DNA of 64,000 nt from Candidatus Hydrogenedentota bacterium (lineage in GTDB: Bacteria; Hydrogenedentota; Hydrogenedentia; Hydrogenedentales; JAEUWI01), in the NCBI GenBank assembly GCA_019637335.1, contig JAHBVV010000001.1, positions 875,440 to 939,439 of the forward strand, read 5' to 3'. A model generated the notes under the pieces. The model had not been told where the DNA came from, did not search any database, and saw only the letters and a program-made list of their open reading frames with translations. The position numbers and the translations under genes are program-made. Shown here piece after piece: positions 4,469-51,666 of this stretch. How positions within the stretch are numbered: position 1 is the first letter of the stretch; each line of letters begins with the position of its first letter.

Positions 4469-4502
4469 AAAAAACGGGCCGCTTCGGCGGCCCGTTTTTT
4501 TT
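4469..4502 (+). terminator. Rho-independent terminator after aceA
   Basis: A perfect GC-rich hairpin (ACGGGCCGC-TTCG-GCGGCCCGT) with a TTCG tetraloop is flanked by an A-run upstream and eight T residues downstream. It starts 18 bases after the isocitrate lyase stop codon. The A/T symmetry could also let it work on the opposite strand. Confidence 0.95.
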
Positions 4503-4680
4503 AGGCTGGAGGCTTTAGGCTGGAGGCTTTAGGCTGGAGGCTTTAGGCTGGAGGTGAAGGGTGAAGGGTGAAGGGTGAAGGGTGAAGGGTGAAGGGTGAA
4601 GGGTGAAGGGTGAAGGGTGAAGCGTGAAGGGCGAAGGGCGAAGGGCGAAGGGCGAAGGGCGAAGGGGGAAGGGGGAAGGG
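4501..4680 (+). repeat. Two nested tandem arrays (14-bp and 7-bp units)
   Basis: About four copies of a 14-base unit (TTAGGCTGGAGGCT) run from 4501 to about 4553. About ten copies of GTGAAGG follow, then about six GCGAAGG and two GGGGAAG variants to 4680. The unit drifts from one end to the other, as expected of slippage-driven minisatellites. Read on the minus strand it gives a false low-complexity peptide (HPSPFTL repeats). The gap 4681-4783 holds no further gene. Confidence 0.95.
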
Positions 4681-15383: not shown

Positions 15384-16778
15384 CATAAGCGTTAACTTAA
15401 AAAGCTCCTTGCCCCAAGAGCGGTTTCAGCGCTTCGGTTTGGCGATTGCGCTTTCTGGGCGTATCGGAAAGCGCCTCAGTTATTGCGTACCAGTTGCTAA
15501 GAGCATCCCGCAGCCCGGCGGGCGGCAGTATGGCGTCTTTAATCTGCTCAAACATGTATTCGGTCTCCCGCCAGCGGCTTCTTCTCGATTCCAAGCAGGT
15601 ATCCCCAGGGGGAAAAATCCTCACCGGCAGCGATGAGGGTCTCGGTAAGCGATGCGATGAAGAGTTTTCCCTGAAGCCAGGCGCGCGCGCCATCGGGCTC
15701 TTTTTTGGGGAGGTGGCCCAGATGGAGGATAGATTTGAGGCGCTTGAACACGAGCTCTATCTGCCATCGGCCCCTATAGAGCTCAAGAACTTGCGCGGCG
15801 GGGGCGGCGCGTTGCGGCAATGTCGTCAGGACAATGAAGTATCCTGCCGCTTCGAGCGCCTCGGGGCTGGCTTCGAAATTGCTTTTCTGGGCGGTCCGGA
15901 GAATTTTCTTTCGCGCGATTTCCGCCGCTGTCTCACTCTTCTTGACCGCGCATACACGCACTGGAATGGCCTCGTCGTTGTCATCCGCTGGCGGGATGCA
16001 CCAATGCCATTCGCCTATGTCGCACGTATCCAGCGTCCGCAAGTGCGCCAACATATCGACGGGCGAACCCGCGCCGTTCGCCAGTGGGACATTCGAATAG
16101 GGGAGGCGTACGATCGCATCGCCCCCATGAGAAATCACATGCCTGATCCCTGGGCGATTGGCATAGACACGATCTCCAATGAGCACATCCCCCTGGGTTA
16201 CCTCAAAGCGGCGGAATGTTTCGCCGCTGGACTTTTCAAAGATCCTCACATAGTCACACCGAAGCGTGGCCAGATCTATCGAGTAATGTATGCGCCAGCA
16301 GCTTCCCGTTTTGCCTGGCTCGCTGACGGTCGTACCATCCACCAACCGAATCCGGCGACCGGCAAGAAGTCCCTCCGGACATTCGCGACGGCACCACACT
16401 CCAAGAAGGGCCTCATTCATAAGGCGAAACCACTCTCCAGATTGCTTCAATCGCTTCCAAATAGCCACCGAGGAAACCGACGTAAGGCCAGCCTTCTCGG
16501 CTCGAAGGGCGGTATGCTTCAAAGACCTGCCCTCCACCAGGTAGACAAGTAACGTGCGCAGCAGGCACTCCGCATCGGGAAAGCCCCGCATACGAAGCAA
16601 CGCTCCCGATTCACGACCCAAGCTCTCCCAGTTCTCCGGCAGAAAGCCCAGGAGCAATTTCCAGTTCGAAAGGTCATCATTTGGAAGCGATTCCATCGTA
16701 GCACTCCTTCCAGGATATCGGCCTGGAGGGAGTATAGCGGACGGCCCAAAATCGGGTCAAATTAAGTTAACGCTTATG
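15384..16778 (-). mobile_element. Complete IS4-family insertion sequence
   Basis: This 1395-bp element is bounded by perfect 17-bp terminal inverted repeats (CATAAGCGTTAACTTAA) and flanked by an 11-bp direct repeat GGGCGTTGCCC (15373-15383 and 16779-16789). It carries one intact transposase gene. An 11-bp duplication is within the IS4-family range. Removing the element and one repeat restores a perfect REP-like palindrome CCCCGGGCGTTGCCCGGGG-type site, so the target is evident. The intact frame and ends suggest a recent, possibly active insertion. Confidence 0.93.
15548..16696 (-). CDS. IS4-family DDE transposase
   Basis: This 382-residue transposase cuts and joins the element ends. The DDE triad can be placed: first Asp in RLVDGTTVSEP (residue about 119), second Asp in VLIGDRVYANRPG, and Glu in the IS4 YREK signature, seen as Y-x2-R-x3-E-x6-K in YRGRWQIELVFKRLK. 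Length and motif order are those of full-length IS4 transposases. The gene fills the element, with short non-coding margins on each side. Confidence 0.95.
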   Translation of the reverse strand: MESLPNDDLSNWKLLLGFLPENWESLGRESGALLRMRGFPDAECLLRTLLVYLVEGRSLKHTALRAEKAGLTSVSSVAIWKRLKQSGEWFRLMNEALLGVWCRRECPEGLLAGRRIRLVDGTTVSEPGKTGSCWRIHYSIDLATLRCDYVRIFEKSSGETFRRFEVTQGDVLIGDRVYANRPGIRHVISHGGDAIVRLPYSNVPLANGAGSPVDMLAHLRTLDTCDIGEWHWCIPPADDNDEAIPVRVCAVKKSETAAEIARKKILRTAQKSNFEASPEALEAAGYFIVLTTLPQRAAPAAQVLELYRGRWQIELVFKRLKSILHLGHLPKKEPDGARAWLQGKLFIASLTETLIAAGEDFSPWGYLLGIEKKPLAGDRIHV

Positions 16779-17732: not shown

Positions 17733-18571
17733 GGCGCGGGCGCGTCTCCCGCCTCGCCGAGGAGTACGGCGGCGATCCGGCTCCTGGGCTTGATCTCGCG
17801 TATCTCCCGACCGAGCGCCCGGGCGTCGGCGAGGCGATCGAGGCGGAGCAGGCACATTCCGCGCTTCTCCAGGACGTCCGTGATGTCGAAATGTTCGCCG
17901 AAGGAGTAGTAGTGTGTGCGGTCGGCCATGCGGTTTTCGGCGGCCTGGTAGGCGTCGAGCGCGGCGGCGAAATTGAGGCGGGCGAACTGGAGTTCGCCCC
18001 GCAGGTAATACGGCTCGGGCTGGTCGGGATTACTTTCGGCGAGTTTTTCGAGCAACGCGCCGGCCTCGTCGAAGGCCTCCGCCGCCAGGACGGTATTCCC
18101 GGCGAGCCGGGCCGCGCGCGCCTGGAGGTAGAGCGTGGCGAAATTGGCGCCGCCGAGGTTCACCGCCTGGGTGGCCAGGGCGCAGGCGCGCGCCCAGTCG
18201 CCCTCGGCGAAGGCGCAGGCCGCGAGCCCCTGCATGGCGCGGGGATTCTCGGGTTTCTCCGCCGCCACGGCGTCGAAGGCCTCCGCGGCGCGCTTCGTGT
18301 TGCCGCCTTCGAGGAGCGCGAAGGCGAGATCGAGGCGGGGCGGGATCAGGTGGGGGCGCGCCTTGATCACGCGGTAGAAGCATTCCACGGCCTCCTGGAG
18401 CGCGCCCTGGCGAACCTTGCATCTCCCGAGCTGGTGGTAGCAGGCGACGTAGTAGGGGTCGAGCTGGAGCGCCTTCTCGAAATATTGCACCGCCTGCGCC
18501 ACGTCGCCGCGCATGCTGGCGGTCACGCCTTCGTCGTAGTAGCTTTCCGCCGTCTCGCCGCCAAACACCAT
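17729..18571 (-). CDS. Tetratricopeptide-repeat protein
   Basis: A 280-residue protein made almost wholly of TPR helices: ESYYDEGVTASMRGDVAQAVQYFEKALQLDPYYV at residues about 9-42 is a canonical repeat. Further repeats follow at about 43-76, 77-110, 111-144, 146-180 and 185-215. TPR proteins are scaffolds, so this gives no reaction. It begins 12 bases after aroB and overlaps the next gene by 4 bases, forming a three-gene unit. No signal peptide is seen, so it is probably cytoplasmic. Confidence 0.85.
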   Translation of the reverse strand: MVFGGETAESYYDEGVTASMRGDVAQAVQYFEKALQLDPYYVACYHQLGRCKVRQGALQEAVECFYRVIKARPHLIPPRLDLAFALLEGGNTKRAAEAFDAVAAEKPENPRAMQGLAACAFAEGDWARACALATQAVNLGGANFATLYLQARAARLAGNTVLAAEAFDEAGALLEKLAESNPDQPEPYYLRGELQFARLNFAAALDAYQAAENRMADRTHYYSFGEHFDITDVLEKRGMCLLRLDRLADARALGREIREIKPRSRIAAVLLGEAGDAPAP

Positions 18572-18583
18572 GGTCCGTTTTCC

Positions 18584-19705
18584 TTATGCGGGCGCGCGGC
18601 TCACGGCGTCGAGCGCCGCGCGCACCTGCGCCTCGGTTATGTCGGTTCGCTGCACCACATGGCCGATGCGATCCGCCACGATAAACTTGAGTGTGCCCGC
18701 GCGGACTTTCTTGTCCTTGCGCATCGCCTGGACGACGTCGTCGGCCGGGAGTTCCGGCCAGGCGACCGGCAGTCCGTAGGCCTCGAAGACCGCCCGCTGC
18801 CGCGCAACAAAGGCGTCGTCCACAAGCCCCAGCTCGCGGGAGAGGGCGCCGGCGGCCACCATGCCGATGGCGATCGCCTCGCCGTGAAGGAAGGTCTCGT
18901 AGCGGGTCACCGCCTCGATGGCGTGGCCGAAGGTATGGCCGTAGTTCAGGTTTGCGCGGGCGCCGTGTTCCTTTTCGTCCCCCGCGACGACCGCGGCCTT
19001 GATCTCGCAGGAGCGGAGAATCGGCACGGCGAGGGCTTCGGGGTCCATGGCGAGGATGGCGGCGGCATTTTGCTCCATGAAGGCGAAGAGGTCTTCGTCG
19101 GCAATGATGCCGTGCTTGATGGCCTCCGCCAGGCCGGCGCGTAGCTCGCGATCGGGCAGGGTCTGCAGCAGCGCCATGTCCACGAGCACGCCGAGCGGCT
19201 GGTGGAACGCGCCAATGGTGTTCTTGCCGAGCGGGTGGTTGACGCCGGTCTTGCCGCCAACGCTCGAGTCCACCTGGGCCACGATGGTCGTGGGGATTTG
19301 GATGAACGGAACGCCGCGCATGAAGGAGGCGGCCGCGTAGCCGGCGACATCGCCCACGACGCCGCCGCCGAGCGCGAGCACGAGGCTGGTGCGATCCAGA
19401 CCGCCGGCGAGGAAGGTCCCGCAGATGGCTTCCACGGCGGCCATGCGCTTGTTCGGTTCGCCGGCGGGCATCGTGTGTACGTCCACCCCGTGACCGGCGT
19501 CCTCCAGCAGGGTGCGGACACGATCGGCGTAAAGCGGGCCGACATTGGAGTCGGTCACGATGCCCAGACGGCCCTTCACGCCGGTGCGCGCGACCATTTC
19601 CGGGAGGCGGTCGAGGATATCGCTTCCGATCAGGATCGGGTAGGCACGTTCGCCCAGTTCTACGTTGACCGTGCGCAGGGGCACGGCGGGATCGGCGTTG
19701 CTCAT
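18584..19705 (-). CDS. aroB: 3-dehydroquinate synthase
   Basis: Converts DAHP to 3-dehydroquinate, step two of the shikimate pathway, with NAD and a divalent metal. At 373 residues the length is normal. Visible motifs: the NAD-binding GGGVVGDVAGY at about 113-123, VDSSVGGKTGVN at 145-156, Lys/Asn in HPLGKNTIG, and the metal ligands Glu194 (GLAEAIKHG), His257 (NYGHTFGHAIE) and His274 (LHGEA). The gene heads an operon with the TPR and hypothetical genes. The mobile element at 19752-20116 sits just upstream, between this gene and any more distant promoter. Confidence 0.97.
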   Translation of the reverse strand: MSNADPAVPLRTVNVELGERAYPILIGSDILDRLPEMVARTGVKGRLGIVTDSNVGPLYADRVRTLLEDAGHGVDVHTMPAGEPNKRMAAVEAICGTFLAGGLDRTSLVLALGGGVVGDVAGYAAASFMRGVPFIQIPTTIVAQVDSSVGGKTGVNHPLGKNTIGAFHQPLGVLVDMALLQTLPDRELRAGLAEAIKHGIIADEDLFAFMEQNAAAILAMDPEALAVPILRSCEIKAAVVAGDEKEHGARANLNYGHTFGHAIEAVTRYETFLHGEAIAIGMVAAGALSRELGLVDDAFVARQRAVFEAYGLPVAWPELPADDVVQAMRKDKKVRAGTLKFIVADRIGHVVQRTDITEAQVRAALDAVSRAPA

Positions 19706-19751
19706 GGACTATTCCACCCTTCCGGATTCCCGGCGCGGGATTTGTTTTATC

Positions 19752-20116
19752 GTAACAGTTTGGCCGTCTGAAGTAGTCACCCTCGTCGCAGCCAACGGTG
19801 GCGGCTAACCGTGATCGAGCACCGTCATCCCCACGAAAGTGGGGATCCAGAGACCATGCAACGTTAACCTCGCAATCCCTCTGGATTCCCGCTTTCGCGG
19901 GAATGACAAATACATTTGGATTCCCGCCTTCGCGGAAATGACGAATACATCTGGATTCCCGCTTTCGCGGGAATGACGAATACATCTGGATTCCCGCCTT
20001 CGCGGAATTGACGAATACTTCTGGATTCCCGCTTTCGCGGGAATGACGAATACATCCAGTGTAAGTAAGGCATCTCGTATCGGCGAACGCCTTACTTCAG
20101 ACGGCTAACGTGTTAC
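19752..20116. mobile_element. 365-bp MITE with 8-bp target duplication
   Basis: The ends are inverted: GTAACAGTTTGGCCGTCTGA at 19752 and, on the other strand from 20116, GTAACACGTTAGCCGTCTGA, matching at 19 of 22 positions. Immediately outside both ends is the perfect direct repeat GTTTTATC (19744-19751 and 20117-20124). No gene lies inside; the interior is the 35-bp array. GTAA termini and 8-bp duplications are features of the IS66 family, so this is probably an IS66-type non-autonomous element. That family link is inference. Confidence 0.85.
19882..20056. repeat. Five tandem 35-bp units with dRS3-like palindrome
   Basis: Each unit contains ATTCCC-N8-GGGAAT or a close variant, followed by GACGAATACATCTGG. 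Units 1, 3 and 5 are perfect palindromes. Units 2 and 4 share a broken right arm, so the real period is about 70 bp. The core fits the dRS3 pattern known from Neisseria. A related dyad (CATCCCCAC...GTGGGGATCC) lies at 19825-19853. There are no unique spacers. Confidence 0.92.
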
Positions 20117-20150
20117 GTTTTATCTTGACGAATTCGGCGGCGCGATCGGA

Positions 20151-21185
20151 TCAGTACGCCACTTTCACGGTGCGCTTCGTATCCGCGGCCTTTTCGGCGG
20201 CCAGGATCACGGCGAGGCTCTTGAGACCCTCTTCGCCGGAGCAGAAGGGCTCTTCCTGGCCAAGGATGGCGCGCACGAAGGAACCGCCGATGTCGAGGCC
20301 CCACGAGTCCTCATAACGGATGGGTGCGGGGGGCAGATCGAACACGATCTCGCAGCGGGGATTGGTCATGCGCGCCACGAGCGGCTTGTCGGCGTGAAGC
20401 AGCACTTCGAGCGTGCCCTTCGTGCAGTGGATGATGGTGTAGTTCATCATGCCGCCCTGCAGGGTCCACGAGGCGGCCAGCGTGCCCATGCCGCCATCCT
20501 TGAAGGTGAAGGAGGAGACGAAGTTGTCCTCCACGTCGGTGCGCTTCTTCTCCAGGGTGCCGTAGAAGGCGCGGATCTCCTCCACTTCCTTTCCGGTGAT
20601 AAAGCGGATGGCGTCGGCCTTGTGCACGCCCAGGTCGGCCATGGCTCCGAAGCGCGCGTCCTTCTTCTTGAAGAACCATTTCGCGTCGGGCGCCCAGTGT
20701 TCCGGGCCCTCGTGCCCGCACATGCCGGTCACGTGCAGCACCTCGCCGAGAAAACCGCTCTGGATGATCTCGCGCGCCTTCTTGTGGGCGGGGTAGTTGC
20801 GCATGCTCTGGTTCACGACGAGGAGCTTACCGGCCTTTTTCGATTCGGCGACCATTTTCTTCGCCTCGGCCAGGCTCATGGCCATGGGCTTTTCCACCAT
20901 GACGTGCTTGCCGGCGCGGGCGGCCATGATGCTGCACTCGCCGTGGTATTTGTTGGGCATACAGACGGAGACGGCTTCGACCTCCGGATTTTTCAGCAGC
21001 TCCCGGTAGTCGGTGTAGATCTGGGCCTCGGGCGCGAAGCGCTCGGCCATGGCCGCGGCGCGCGGGCGGCTCGCATCGCAGAAGGCCACCAGGTCGGCCT
21101 GGCCGCAGGTGGCGTAGTCGGGGATGTGGAGGCGTTCGGCGATGGCGCCGCAGCCGATAATTCCTACTTTGACACGTTTGGACAC
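20151..21185 (-). CDS. Gfo/Idh/MocA-family oxidoreductase
   Basis: A 344-residue NAD(P)-dependent dehydrogenase, probably acting on a sugar or cyclitol. The Rossmann start is VGIIGCGAIAERLHIP (residues about 7-22). Next come CDASR, VSVCMPNKYHGE and the family signature with catalytic Lys in KHVMVEKPMAMSLAEAKKM (about 93-111). The C-terminal alpha/beta domain includes GAMADLGVHKADAIRFI, where the His is in the usual catalytic region. No signal peptide, so cytoplasmic. Substrate cannot be predicted; the sulfatase-like neighbour upstream suggests glycan degradation. Confidence 0.93.
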   Translation of the reverse strand: MSKRVKVGIIGCGAIAERLHIPDYATCGQADLVAFCDASRPRAAAMAERFAPEAQIYTDYRELLKNPEVEAVSVCMPNKYHGECSIMAARAGKHVMVEKPMAMSLAEAKKMVAESKKAGKLLVVNQSMRNYPAHKKAREIIQSGFLGEVLHVTGMCGHEGPEHWAPDAKWFFKKKDARFGAMADLGVHKADAIRFITGKEVEEIRAFYGTLEKKRTDVEDNFVSSFTFKDGGMGTLAASWTLQGGMMNYTIIHCTKGTLEVLLHADKPLVARMTNPRCEIVFDLPPAPIRYEDSWGLDIGGSFVRAILGQEEPFCSGEEGLKSLAVILAAEKAADTKRTVKVAY

Positions 21186-37123: not shown

Positions 37124-38083
37124 ATGTCCATGACGTACCAGAATCGAATGATGATCGCGGTCTTCCTGTCCGTGCTCCTGCACGCGGCGGGCTTTGGCGT
37201 GCTTCAGTATTCCTACACACCCCGCCCCGCCCCGCCGCCTCCGGAATCCGCGCCGATCATCGTCAATCTGCAGCCCGAACCCGAGCCGGAGCAGACGCCA
37301 TCCCGGCAGCTCGTCGACGTGGCCGTACCGGCGCCGGAGCCGCCCGACTCCACCGATCGCACTGCGGAAACGAATGCCGAGACGATGACCCTGGCGCGGC
37401 GCCCCGATGCCGCGCCGGCCCCGGCGCTGGCGCCCGACACTTTCGACGCGCTTCCCGCGCCGCCGTCGCCGCCGGAGGAGCCCGCGCCCGCGCCGGTGGA
37501 GCCCCCGCTGGAGCAGGCGCCGCCCGAGGAAGAGCCGGAACCGGCCGAAACACCGGCCCGAAAGCCAACCCCGGAGCGCGCCACACCGCCCGTGGAGGAG
37601 ATGGATGTTCCGCTCGAAACGGTGGAAATCGACGAACCGGCGGAGGCCGAGGAACCCGCCCCCGAACCGCCCATGCAAGTGGCCCGGGCCATGCCTGCGC
37701 CGCCCCAGCGGCCCTCGCCCGGGCGCGCCCGGGAACAGGGCGGCGGCGCGCGCCAGGGCGCGACGAACTTCAGCGCAATCCAGCACGAAATCGCGCCCTA
37801 CCTCAAGCACGTGCGCCAGCTTGTGGAACGCCAGTGGAACGAAATGATATACACGCGCTACTCGGGCACGTCGCCCGTGCGCGCGGTTATCGACTGCGCG
37901 ATCAACCCGCAGGGCGAACTGGTTTCCGTGACGATCATCGAACCCGACCGGGACCGGCTCTACAGCGCACTGTGCCGCGACGCCGTGCAACGCGCGGGCC
38001 CCTTTGGTCCCTTTACCTTCGAGGTGCCGGAAATCTACCGTAACCAGAACCTCGAAATACGCTGGACCTTTAACTTTCTGTAA
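37124..38083 (+). CDS. tonB: TonB-family energy transducer
   Basis: 319 residues. One N-terminal membrane helix (RMMIAVFLSVLLHAAGFGVL) is followed by about 180 residues rich in Pro, Glu and Ala that span the periplasm. A C-terminal TonB-like domain (about 240-319) includes ARYSGTSPVRAVIDCAINPQGELVSVTIIEPDRD. It transmits proton-motive force from ExbB/D to outer membrane receptors. A TATACT -10 box lies at 37099-37104. The stop TAA is part of the GTAA terminus of the element at 38080; before insertion the frame would have ended T-F-N-F-H-stop. Confidence 0.92.
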   Translation: MSMTYQNRMMIAVFLSVLLHAAGFGVLQYSYTPRPAPPPPESAPIIVNLQPEPEPEQTPSRQLVDVAVPAPEPPDSTDRTAETNAETMTLARRPDAAPAPALAPDTFDALPAPPSPPEEPAPAPVEPPLEQAPPEEEPEPAETPARKPTPERATPPVEEMDVPLETVEIDEPAEAEEPAPEPPMQVARAMPAPPQRPSPGRAREQGGGARQGATNFSAIQHEIAPYLKHVRQLVERQWNEMIYTRYSGTSPVRAVIDCAINPQGELVSVTIIEPDRDRLYSALCRDAVQRAGPFGPFTFEVPEIYRNQNLEIRWTFNFL

Positions 38084-39294
38084 CAGTTTAGCCGTCTGAA
38101 GCAAAGAAGTTTTTCAACCACGAATGAACGCAGGGCAGCCTGTTGGCGCAACTGAATATGGGATCACCACGAAGGGCATGGGGCAGCCGCTGGCCGCAAC
38201 CAAGGAATTGATCACCACGAAGGGCACGAAGTCCACGAAGGAAAGAGGTTGGAGAAGGATTGATATTCACGCGACGGCGCAGAGGAGAAAAGGCGCAGAG
38301 GAGACGATCCAGGGCGCGATGCGCGGTTACGGTGGGCGGGGGATTGGATTTGGAGCCACAAAGAGCGCAAAGATCACAAAGGACACGGGGGAGCCTCTGG
38401 CCGCAGCCAGGGAACTGATCACCACGATGGGTACGAAGAGAAACAGAGAAGGGCTTTAACCGCAGAGAGCGCAGAGGATGGCTCTTGTACGCAGATGAAG
38501 TAGGTGGTTGAATGAGGGTGCGTTTTTGACCACGAATGGACAGCAATGCAGACGAATGCGCCGGGAGCGGCGGCTGGCCACGATCAGGATTTGTGACCAC
38601 GGATGACACGGATGACACGGATAGCAATTGGTTCCGGCCGTTGAGGCGTGCCGGCGGCTGCGTGCGATTTTCGACGCAGCCTGTTCGGATTGTTCAGCAT
38701 CCGGGGTGGAACGGGTGGCGGGCTGCTCGGTCTAATCTTGTTCGAGCGTCGCGGCAATCCGTGTCATCGGTGTAATCCGTGGTCAATAGAAGAATACCGG
38801 CCACGATATTCATGGGACGGCCCGGAAATTCTCCTTGGAATTTCCAATTCGTAAATGCTTTTACAACAGATTGTTACGGAGGTATTGCGCGCAAGAACTT
38901 GCAGAAAAAACAAGAAAATGACGGATAGCAGTACGAATTCACACGAATAAGAGAGACTATTGACCGGGTTCGAGGACTGAAATGGAACGATAACAGGTCC
39001 GCCTTTGATCTCTTGAAGTGGATATTTTTTCCACAGATTTGCACAGAACGCCACAGATAAGAGATAGAGACCGGCAGCGCCAGAGAGCCGGGTTGGTGTC
39101 TGCGCGGATCTTTGGAAAAACTCCTTCGTTGCGGCGAAAGGTTGCTCTATGTTCTCCGCGGCCAATCAGGTTTCTTGTTGCCTGGATGCCTGGCCGCGGG
39201 TCTGGGAAAAGGCTGCTTGAACTGAATTTCGGTTTCTTATTCGTGTCCATTCGCGGTAAAACTGGTACTCAACTTCATACGGCTAAAGAATTAC
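38080..39294. mobile_element. 1.2-kb non-autonomous element separating tonB and exbB
   Basis: The left terminus GTAACAGTTTAGCCGTCTGA (38080) is inverted at the right end, where the reverse strand reads GTAATTCTTTAGCCGTATGA (18 of 22 matching). Flanks are AACTTTCT (38072-38079) and AACTTTCA (39295-39302), an 8-bp target duplication with one change. The interior has no gene; it is full of CCACGAAGGGCACGAAG, GATGACACGGAT and AACCACGAATG short repeats. Excising it leaves tonB ending T-F-N-F-H-stop about 39 bases before exbB. Confidence 0.8.
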
Positions 39295-40001: not shown

Positions 40002-40303
40002 GTAACACTTTAGCGGTCTGAAGTGCGGAACAGTATGTGTTTTCACTAGTCGAGCCGGTGTGTATGGAGCGCCGGCGGCCCGCCGGCATTGCACCGAAGA
40101 TGCAAGAATACGTTGCCGGAGTGCTCCGGCGACACGCGGCTTTTTATGCAACGGCAGCATTTCCAGAATGCTCTCTTGCGCCGGCGGCGCAATCTGCCGG
40201 CGGGCCGCCGGCGCTCCATAGTTGCACGTAGCCTTTATTCAGCATATCGCTCGAGTTTGGCCACTGTACTTCGCCACTGTACTTCGCTCGGCTGAAATGT
40301 TAC
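40002..40303. mobile_element. Probable 302-bp MITE after exbB
   Basis: The left end GTAACACTTTAGCGGTCTGA is close to other family members. The right end, read from 40303 on the reverse strand, is GTAACATTTCAGCCGAGCGA (16 of 22 matching). The flanks GCTTCCGC and GATTCCGC match at seven of eight, but one base is extra between the right end and its flank, so the duplication is uncertain. It contains palindromic GCCGGCGGGCCGCCGGC blocks and two copies of CCACTGTACTTCG. No gene is visible. Confidence 0.6.
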
Positions 40304-51555: not shown

Positions 51556-51666
51556 CGTGTTTTTGCGCCTTCGGCGCCATGCCGGCGGGCCGCTGGCGCT
51601 CCATAGACACCGGCTCCACTCGTACGAACACCTGCTGTTCCGCACTTCAGACCGCTAAGGTGTTAC
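51556..51666 (-). repeat. Partial inverted copy of repeat B
   Basis: Read on the minus strand from 51666 it starts GTAACACCTTAGCGGTCTGA and continues through the same sequence as 40002 (GTGCGGAACAG, TGGAGCCGGTGT, GGAGCGCC) to GGCGCCGAAGGCGC. No partner terminus is visible. The rest of 51377-51885 is non-coding. Confidence 0.75.

Follow-up and report, generated by a model that had tools for sequence, protein, structure and literature searches.

A REP-carrying, probable IS66-type MITE with an expanded palindrome array upstream of a putative aroB gene in a Candidatus Hydrogenedentota genome

How does a tandem array of palindromes come to lie between two bacterial genes, and what could have carried it there? 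The question is raised by a locus in a Candidatus Hydrogenedentota genome (G000; 7.16 Mb in 55 contigs), from which we analysed a stretch of 64,000 nucleotides, referred to below as the window. Here a 365-bp element is bounded by inverted ends of about 24 bp (Table 1), which form a terminal inverted repeat of 25 nt with 88% complementarity, and the octamer GTTTTATC stands on both sides of it, identical at 8 of 8 positions. No ORF of at least 100 amino acids lies wholly inside the element; two ORFs, at 18030-19985 (minus strand) and 19202-19771 (plus strand), merely extend into it. It has a minus-strand ORF on either side. One of these is the putative aroB, and the element lies upstream of it, 46 bp from the start codon. 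Without the element the two ORFs would be spaced by about 72 bp, and the insertion may therefore separate genes that are transcribed together.

Table 1. Features of the element and its neighbours, in window coordinates
Feature	Position	Strand
ORF read as aroB, 373 aa (predicted, from the protein by eye)	18584-19705	-
Left 8-bp target duplication, GTTTTATC	19744-19751	
Very probable IS66-type MITE, 365 bp (basic form, 225 bp; tandem expansion, 140 bp)	19752-20116	+
Terminal inverted repeat, left, GTAACAGTTTGGCCGTCTGAAGTA	19752-19775	+
CGTC REP, left, CGTCATCCCCACGAAAGTGGGGATCC	19823-19848	+
Five 35-bp units in direct orientation, each a CGTC REP with 9 further bp	19880-20054	+
REP unit 1, tag TGTC	19883-19908	-
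REP unit 2, one stem base changed, T-G pair	19918-19943	-
REP unit 3	19953-19978	-
REP unit 4, two stem bases changed	19988-20013	-
REP unit 5	20023-20048	-
Terminal inverted repeat, right, inverse of the left, GTAACACGTTAGCCGTCTGAAGTA	20093-20116	-
Right 8-bp target duplication, GTTTTATC	20117-20124	
Upstream ORF, Gfo/Idh-type oxidoreductase, 344 aa (predicted, by eye)	20151-21185	-

How widespread is the element within its own genome? A search with its sequence returned 103 matching pieces, which fall into 39 loci besides the window. Our copy set (n = 33) consists of the window element and the 32 of these 39 loci at which both ends could be placed; the other seven (L025, L052-L055, L057 and L058) are cut by a contig end or have one end unrecognised. 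The octamers flanking a copy match at 7 or more of 8 positions in 27 of the 33 and at all 8 in 14, as against 7 or more in 1 of 1,054 pairs when flanks were swapped between different copies; the duplications of the other six are poor (1-6 of 8). Nineteen copies measure 222-227 bp, two 294 bp, eight 432 bp, and one each 365 bp (the window copy), 374 bp, 431 bp and 570 bp. Identity among the short copies reaches 98% (median 91%), so their spread is fairly recent. The end pattern itself is found at 195 sites in this genome with at most three mismatches (reversed-pattern control, 0) and at 130 with at most two; at the latter threshold the other 67 genomes of the phylum hold 12 sites in total, in five of them, and genus-mates 0 to 2. 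For 26 of the 27 well-duplicated copies, a crude test placed 18 insertion sites within stop-to-stop ORFs of at least 150 codons, the corresponding proportion of flank positions being 0.886, a comparison of little weight in a genome where long chance ORFs abound. A preliminary description, made from the window alone, had called the element a 365-bp MITE with a perfect 8-bp duplication and had proposed looking for further copies; the ends, the duplication and the 33 copies bear it out.

Which transposase could move a short non-coding element of this kind? The same genome encodes an IS66-family transposase between the same ends (L064:2366-3890, equivalent to C4:200366-201890), where a single ORF of 490 amino acids, at L064:2410-3882, fills the 1,525 bp between them. 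Its product matches the profiles NF033517 (279.7 bits; cut-off 180), PF03050 and zf-IS66, and the ends of this IS agree with the family end at 22/22 and 20/22 positions. The flanks of the full-length copy match at 3 of 8 positions, with no 8-bp duplication, and another end adjoins it; its last move was not clean. No second intact transposase of this IS66 kind was found in the genome. On contig C25, a decayed IS66 element adjacent to MITE copies has this type of end at its start. At L065:2081-4140 a decayed IS66 copy lies between two MITE copies that share the left flank CATGGTCG, which suggests a local duplication. Within another genome, G020, the sole end match (C239:5080-5103) overlaps a C-terminal fragment of TnpC (C239:5097-5198), and the right end in the intact IS66 copy likewise overlaps the transposase C-terminus.

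The ends of related transposons point the same way. Of 28 transposase relatives, 18 from named genomes were examined for their ends: GTAA stands at both ends in 8 (in two of them in the second-ranked pair of ends only) and is absent in 10; the relatives from Rhodopirellula solitaria (L089) and Aporhodopirellula (L096) combine GTAA ends with perfect 8-bp duplications. According to PMC12898284, the ends of ISDge4, a single-ORF IS66 element of the ISBst12 group, are GTGACTACTCAGCA/GTAACTGCTCAGCA, and its target duplication measures 8 bp. On the strength of the ends common with the IS66 gene, and of the ends and duplications of its relatives and of ISDge4, the 365-bp element is very probably an IS66-type MITE of ISBst12-like affinity—short, non-coding, with shared GTAA ends, an 8-bp duplication and a partner that has tnpC alone—and we infer from these sequence features that the IS66 transposase moves it in trans. 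An IS66 origin had already been suggested from the GTAA ends and 8-bp duplications, with the advice to look for an IS66 transposase bearing these termini; the gene at L064 gives that suggestion its partner.

What, then, is the palindromic array inside the element? The five 35-bp units that had been described were confirmed (TRF: 5.1 copies, period 35, score 298). CGTC-1 REPs, a class that includes the dRS3 repeats of Neisseria, are described as a CGTC tag, an 8-bp stem, a 4-nt loop and a CCA tail (PMC3733652). Units 3 and 5 have this structure in full, unit 1 departs from it in its tag, and units 2 and 4 depart in one and two stem positions, respectively; the units had thus been rightly likened to dRS3, with which CGTC-1 REPs are equated in that source. 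The head-to-head pairing of the class also recurs: the basic 225-bp element holds one head-to-head REP pair, and naked pairs occur in other genomes. Paired stem positions covary: in 124 REPs of G000, collected with independent letters permitted at two stem positions, the pair at positions 7-22 is C-G or T-A in 122 and that at positions 11-18 is G-C or A-T in 123, the three remaining pairs being G-T or T-G.

Aligned with the 19 short copies, the window copy exceeds the 225-bp form by 140 bp, the excess being four additional units of the right REP. All 19 short copies have a single 35-bp unit, including the nearest relative (L021, 96% alike), and no second five-unit array was found in the genome. 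These comparisons support the earlier proposal that the array expanded after insertion. Units 3 and 5 are identical, unit 1 is one base off, and units 2 and 4 agree at two of six variable positions; odd units differ from one another at 0-1 positions, even units at 3 and odd from even units at 3-5. A 70-bp period, also proposed before, does exist, but it is thin, with strict alternation at just two of the six variable positions (TCTCT and GAGAG). A first duplication of 35 bp followed by duplication of a two-unit block fits this pattern, a fit that rests on those two positions; the apparent order of slippage events is drawn from six variable positions in all. The lengths of the copies vary, as the preliminary description had anticipated, but steps of the 35-bp unit occur in the window copy alone, and the other long copies hold a second transposon.

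Are the REPs confined to this family of elements? REP matches are present in 48 of the 68 genomes of the phylum, and the cases examined in G005 and G036 are mostly bare head-to-head pairs. The REP pair is therefore older and wider in distribution than the MITE, and one MITE lineage would seem to have acquired an existing pair. Other elements with the same IS66-type ends carry no REP, among them one at 38080-39294 of the window. Eighteen further REP loci of G000 were read. A clear IS66-type end (3 mismatches) stands beside the cluster at one of them (L165), and weak ones (4 and 6 mismatches) at L160 and L173, so the idea that all REPs of the genome lie within IS66-type elements was rejected. 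Paired ends of a second element, 203 bp long, are present at 15 of the 18. In a plasmid collection the IS66-type element is absent, and the search gave just two short REP-like matches, of which one, with 100% identity over 32 bp, comes from a record of Neisseria gonorrhoeae.

The second element has ends GGGGCTGTCGRTTTA and a REP pair of its own (e.g., L041:1135-1337). Its end is present in all 13 long copies of the IS66-type MITE other than that of the window, if weakly in L044 and L051. The element is inserted in a REP loop of the IS66-type MITE and, in clean cases, the 4-nt loop is duplicated, which accounts for the 432-bp copies (225 + 203 + 4). The sizes of 294 and 570 bp are 432 bp minus and plus 138 bp; this is the spacing of REPs across the nested insertion, and REP-REP recombination is thus a likely source of both. 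Over 33 listed pairs of second-element ends, some of them paired across nested copies, the loop match is 4/4 in 18, 3/4 in 7 and 0-1 in 8. Second-element ends with at most two mismatches occur at 107 sites in the genome (control, 13); 42 exact ones were scored, and 40 of these abut a REP arm, whereas none of 66 IS66-type MITE ends, taken as a control, does so.

This element, too, has a partner in the same genome, an IS1182-family IS of 1,861 bp (NF033551, 363.8 bits) with the same ends. At L201:1285-3145 (C1:314579-316439) the IS is nested in a 203-bp MITE that is itself nested in an IS66-type MITE, and there it occupies a REP loop with GAAA duplicated. The 203-bp element thus shares with an IS1182 transposase gene its ends and with the IS its choice of target, which it duplicates, as expected of an IS1182-type MITE. 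The association extends to the genus-mate G036, where all six 203-bp elements fetched (L203-L208) carry a REP pair and occupy REPs, with a loop match of 4/4 in two and of 1 to 3 of 4 in the others. G041 and G045 have one element each (195 and 149 bp, respectively), which lies within a REP and has no internal REP pair. Each insertion of a 203-bp MITE removes one REP target and adds two.

How do these pieces fit together? We consider it very likely that the window copy is a non-autonomous, ISBst12-like IS66 MITE with a REP pair as passenger, that its right REP was expanded by slippage, and that its REPs are of a kind used as targets by IS1182-type MITEs. The IS66 transposase, from a tnpC-only IS at another site in the genome, would recognise the shared ends GTAAYWCTTYAGCCGTCTGAAG and, judging from the ends and duplications, insert the element by an 8-bp staggered cut; the basic 225-bp element would carry the head-to-head CGTC-1 pair along. 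The right REP with 9 flanking bases would then have been tandemly duplicated until five units stood in a row; replication slippage at hairpins is the most likely mechanism, followed, again most likely, by slippage over a two-unit block of 70 bp. Elsewhere the REPs would act as landing sites, an IS1182-type MITE with its own REP pair entering their loops to give the larger copies. Since REP pairs lie inside both MITE families, CGTC REPs are here the cargo of two such families. We lean, by a small degree, towards a broader view in which CGTC REPs have spread in this lineage as both cargo and target of DDE transposons, a self-feeding process that uses one site and supplies two per insertion.

Several other accounts were weighed against this one. 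If the REPs were moved by a RAYT-type (tyrosine) system of their own, the IS66-type ends would be incidental, and the commonness of end-less REP pairs in the phylum, with naked pairs in G005 and G036, would follow naturally. The 225-bp copies of G000 are, however, alike from end to end and have their 8-bp duplications outside the ends, which indicates that the entire unit moved rather than the REPs alone; we regard this account as very unlikely for the copies here, while a RAYT-type route may have served for the first arrival of the REP pair. It is still harder to credit that the five units are ancestral and that the 225-bp copies lost four: slippage can delete repeat units as well, but the 19 short copies, L021 among them, are uniform in having one unit, and the array has no counterpart elsewhere in the genome. 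Equally hard to credit is an assembly artefact. Tandem repeats are error-prone in assembly, and one copy (L037) has odd small deletions, but units 2 and 4 each differ from all the other units, and the array lies inside a 973-kb contig.

The position of the array raises the further possibility, which we hold to be unlikely, that selection maintains it, its hairpins forming an RNA or protein-binding element that controls aroB. The array lies close upstream of that gene between same-strand ORFs, and the minus-strand RNA of the element has a predicted fold of -178.4 kcal/mol (z -11.1); an unselected MITE rich in palindromes would, however, fold as strongly. A promoter scan gave no sigma-70-like promoter in the element, no terminator-like site was found within it (two begin outside, on the other strand), and an Rfam search of the element returned no family at gathering score. 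Moreover, decay of the stems in units 2 and 4 argues against selection on every hairpin. An empty site for comparison was sought at aroB and none was recognised (G036, in the 190 bp before aroB). The array is thus probably without a selected role, and the protein-binding or recombination function upstream of aroB suggested in the preliminary description found support in no test. As for recombination, dRS3 is a phage site, and the array could be imagined as a dRS3-like attachment site for a phage or integrase. The unit class does include dRS3 (PMC3733652), but from end to end the element aligns with the other copies, its 140 bp of extra REP units apart, and so has no integrated cargo; we judge such a role exceedingly improbable.

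How does this system compare with those already described? Members of the IS66 ISBst12 group such as ISDge4 (PMC12898284) have a single transposase ORF, GTAA-type ends and an 8-bp duplication, as here; the present family, in contrast to that description, consists mostly of short non-coding copies, and its intact IS has no duplication. Bacterial MITEs such as RUP, NEMIS and Nezha, named in PMC3733652, are likewise short, non-coding and hairpin-rich, with inverted ends and a target duplication, whereas in the present family the ends are of the IS66 type and the cargo is a REP pair. Its REPs share the tag, stem, loop, tail and head-to-head pairing of the CGTC-1 and dRS3 repeats treated in that source, although a run of five units in direct, head-to-tail order is not usual for the class as described there. 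The 2013 account gives CGTC REPs no dedicated transposase and leaves open whether other transposases move them; the REP pairs of H. neapolitanus, for instance, are placed in 41-bp palindromes with no named transposase (PMC3733652). Where that account found no link to a transposase, the pairs here lie within transposon ends and duplications.

The second element resembles IS1272 of the IS1182 family in its IS1182 transposase and its palindromic hairpin targets, but IS1272 replaces the target stem-loop without duplication, whereas here the 4-nt loop is duplicated (PMC5678879); loop-only duplication at hairpins is drawn in that paper as a possible outcome (pathway c). REPs are known as insertion sites of IS elements, with neither IS66 nor IS1182 named in the portion of PMC1525189 consulted, and, in contrast to the cases given there, the MITE inserted here brings REPs itself. 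Among titles, PMC3281130 included, we found none on IS66 MITEs, and a literature search that lay mostly outside subscription journals gave no description of REP-carrying IS66 or IS1182 MITEs. If the broader view holds, it would show concretely how CGTC REPs, lacking their own transposase, can move. With a REP pair in two transposon families, one of them targeting REP loops, this can now be tested with two particular transposases, and REP-carrying MITEs may help explain the spread of repeats thought to lack a transposase. The window copy itself would be a MITE that grows a palindrome array by slippage.

The window contains several other mobile or repetitive elements. That at 38080-39294 (1,215 bp) has IS66-type ends and a 7/8 duplication, AACTTTCT/AACTTTCA; no CGTC REP was found in it, and its interior is filled with repeats of short motifs, CCACGGATGACACGG and CACGAAGGGCACGAAG among them. 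IS66-type ends also bound 40002-40303, where the flanks GCTTCCGC/GATTCCGC match at 7 of 8 positions with the right end shifted by one base, and lone ends occur at 138-161 and 51643-51666, with no partner found nearby. The DDE_Tnp_1 transposase encoded at 15.5-16.7 kb was considered as a partner of the second element and rejected, as the ends differ. It belongs to an IS at 15384-16778 (transposase of 382 aa) whose ends are CATAAGCGTTAACTTAA and whose 11-bp duplication, GGGCGTTGCCC, is palindromic. Finally, 7-bp tandem repeats occupy 4500-4680, with GGTGAAG repeated 18 times and TTTAGGC 7 times.
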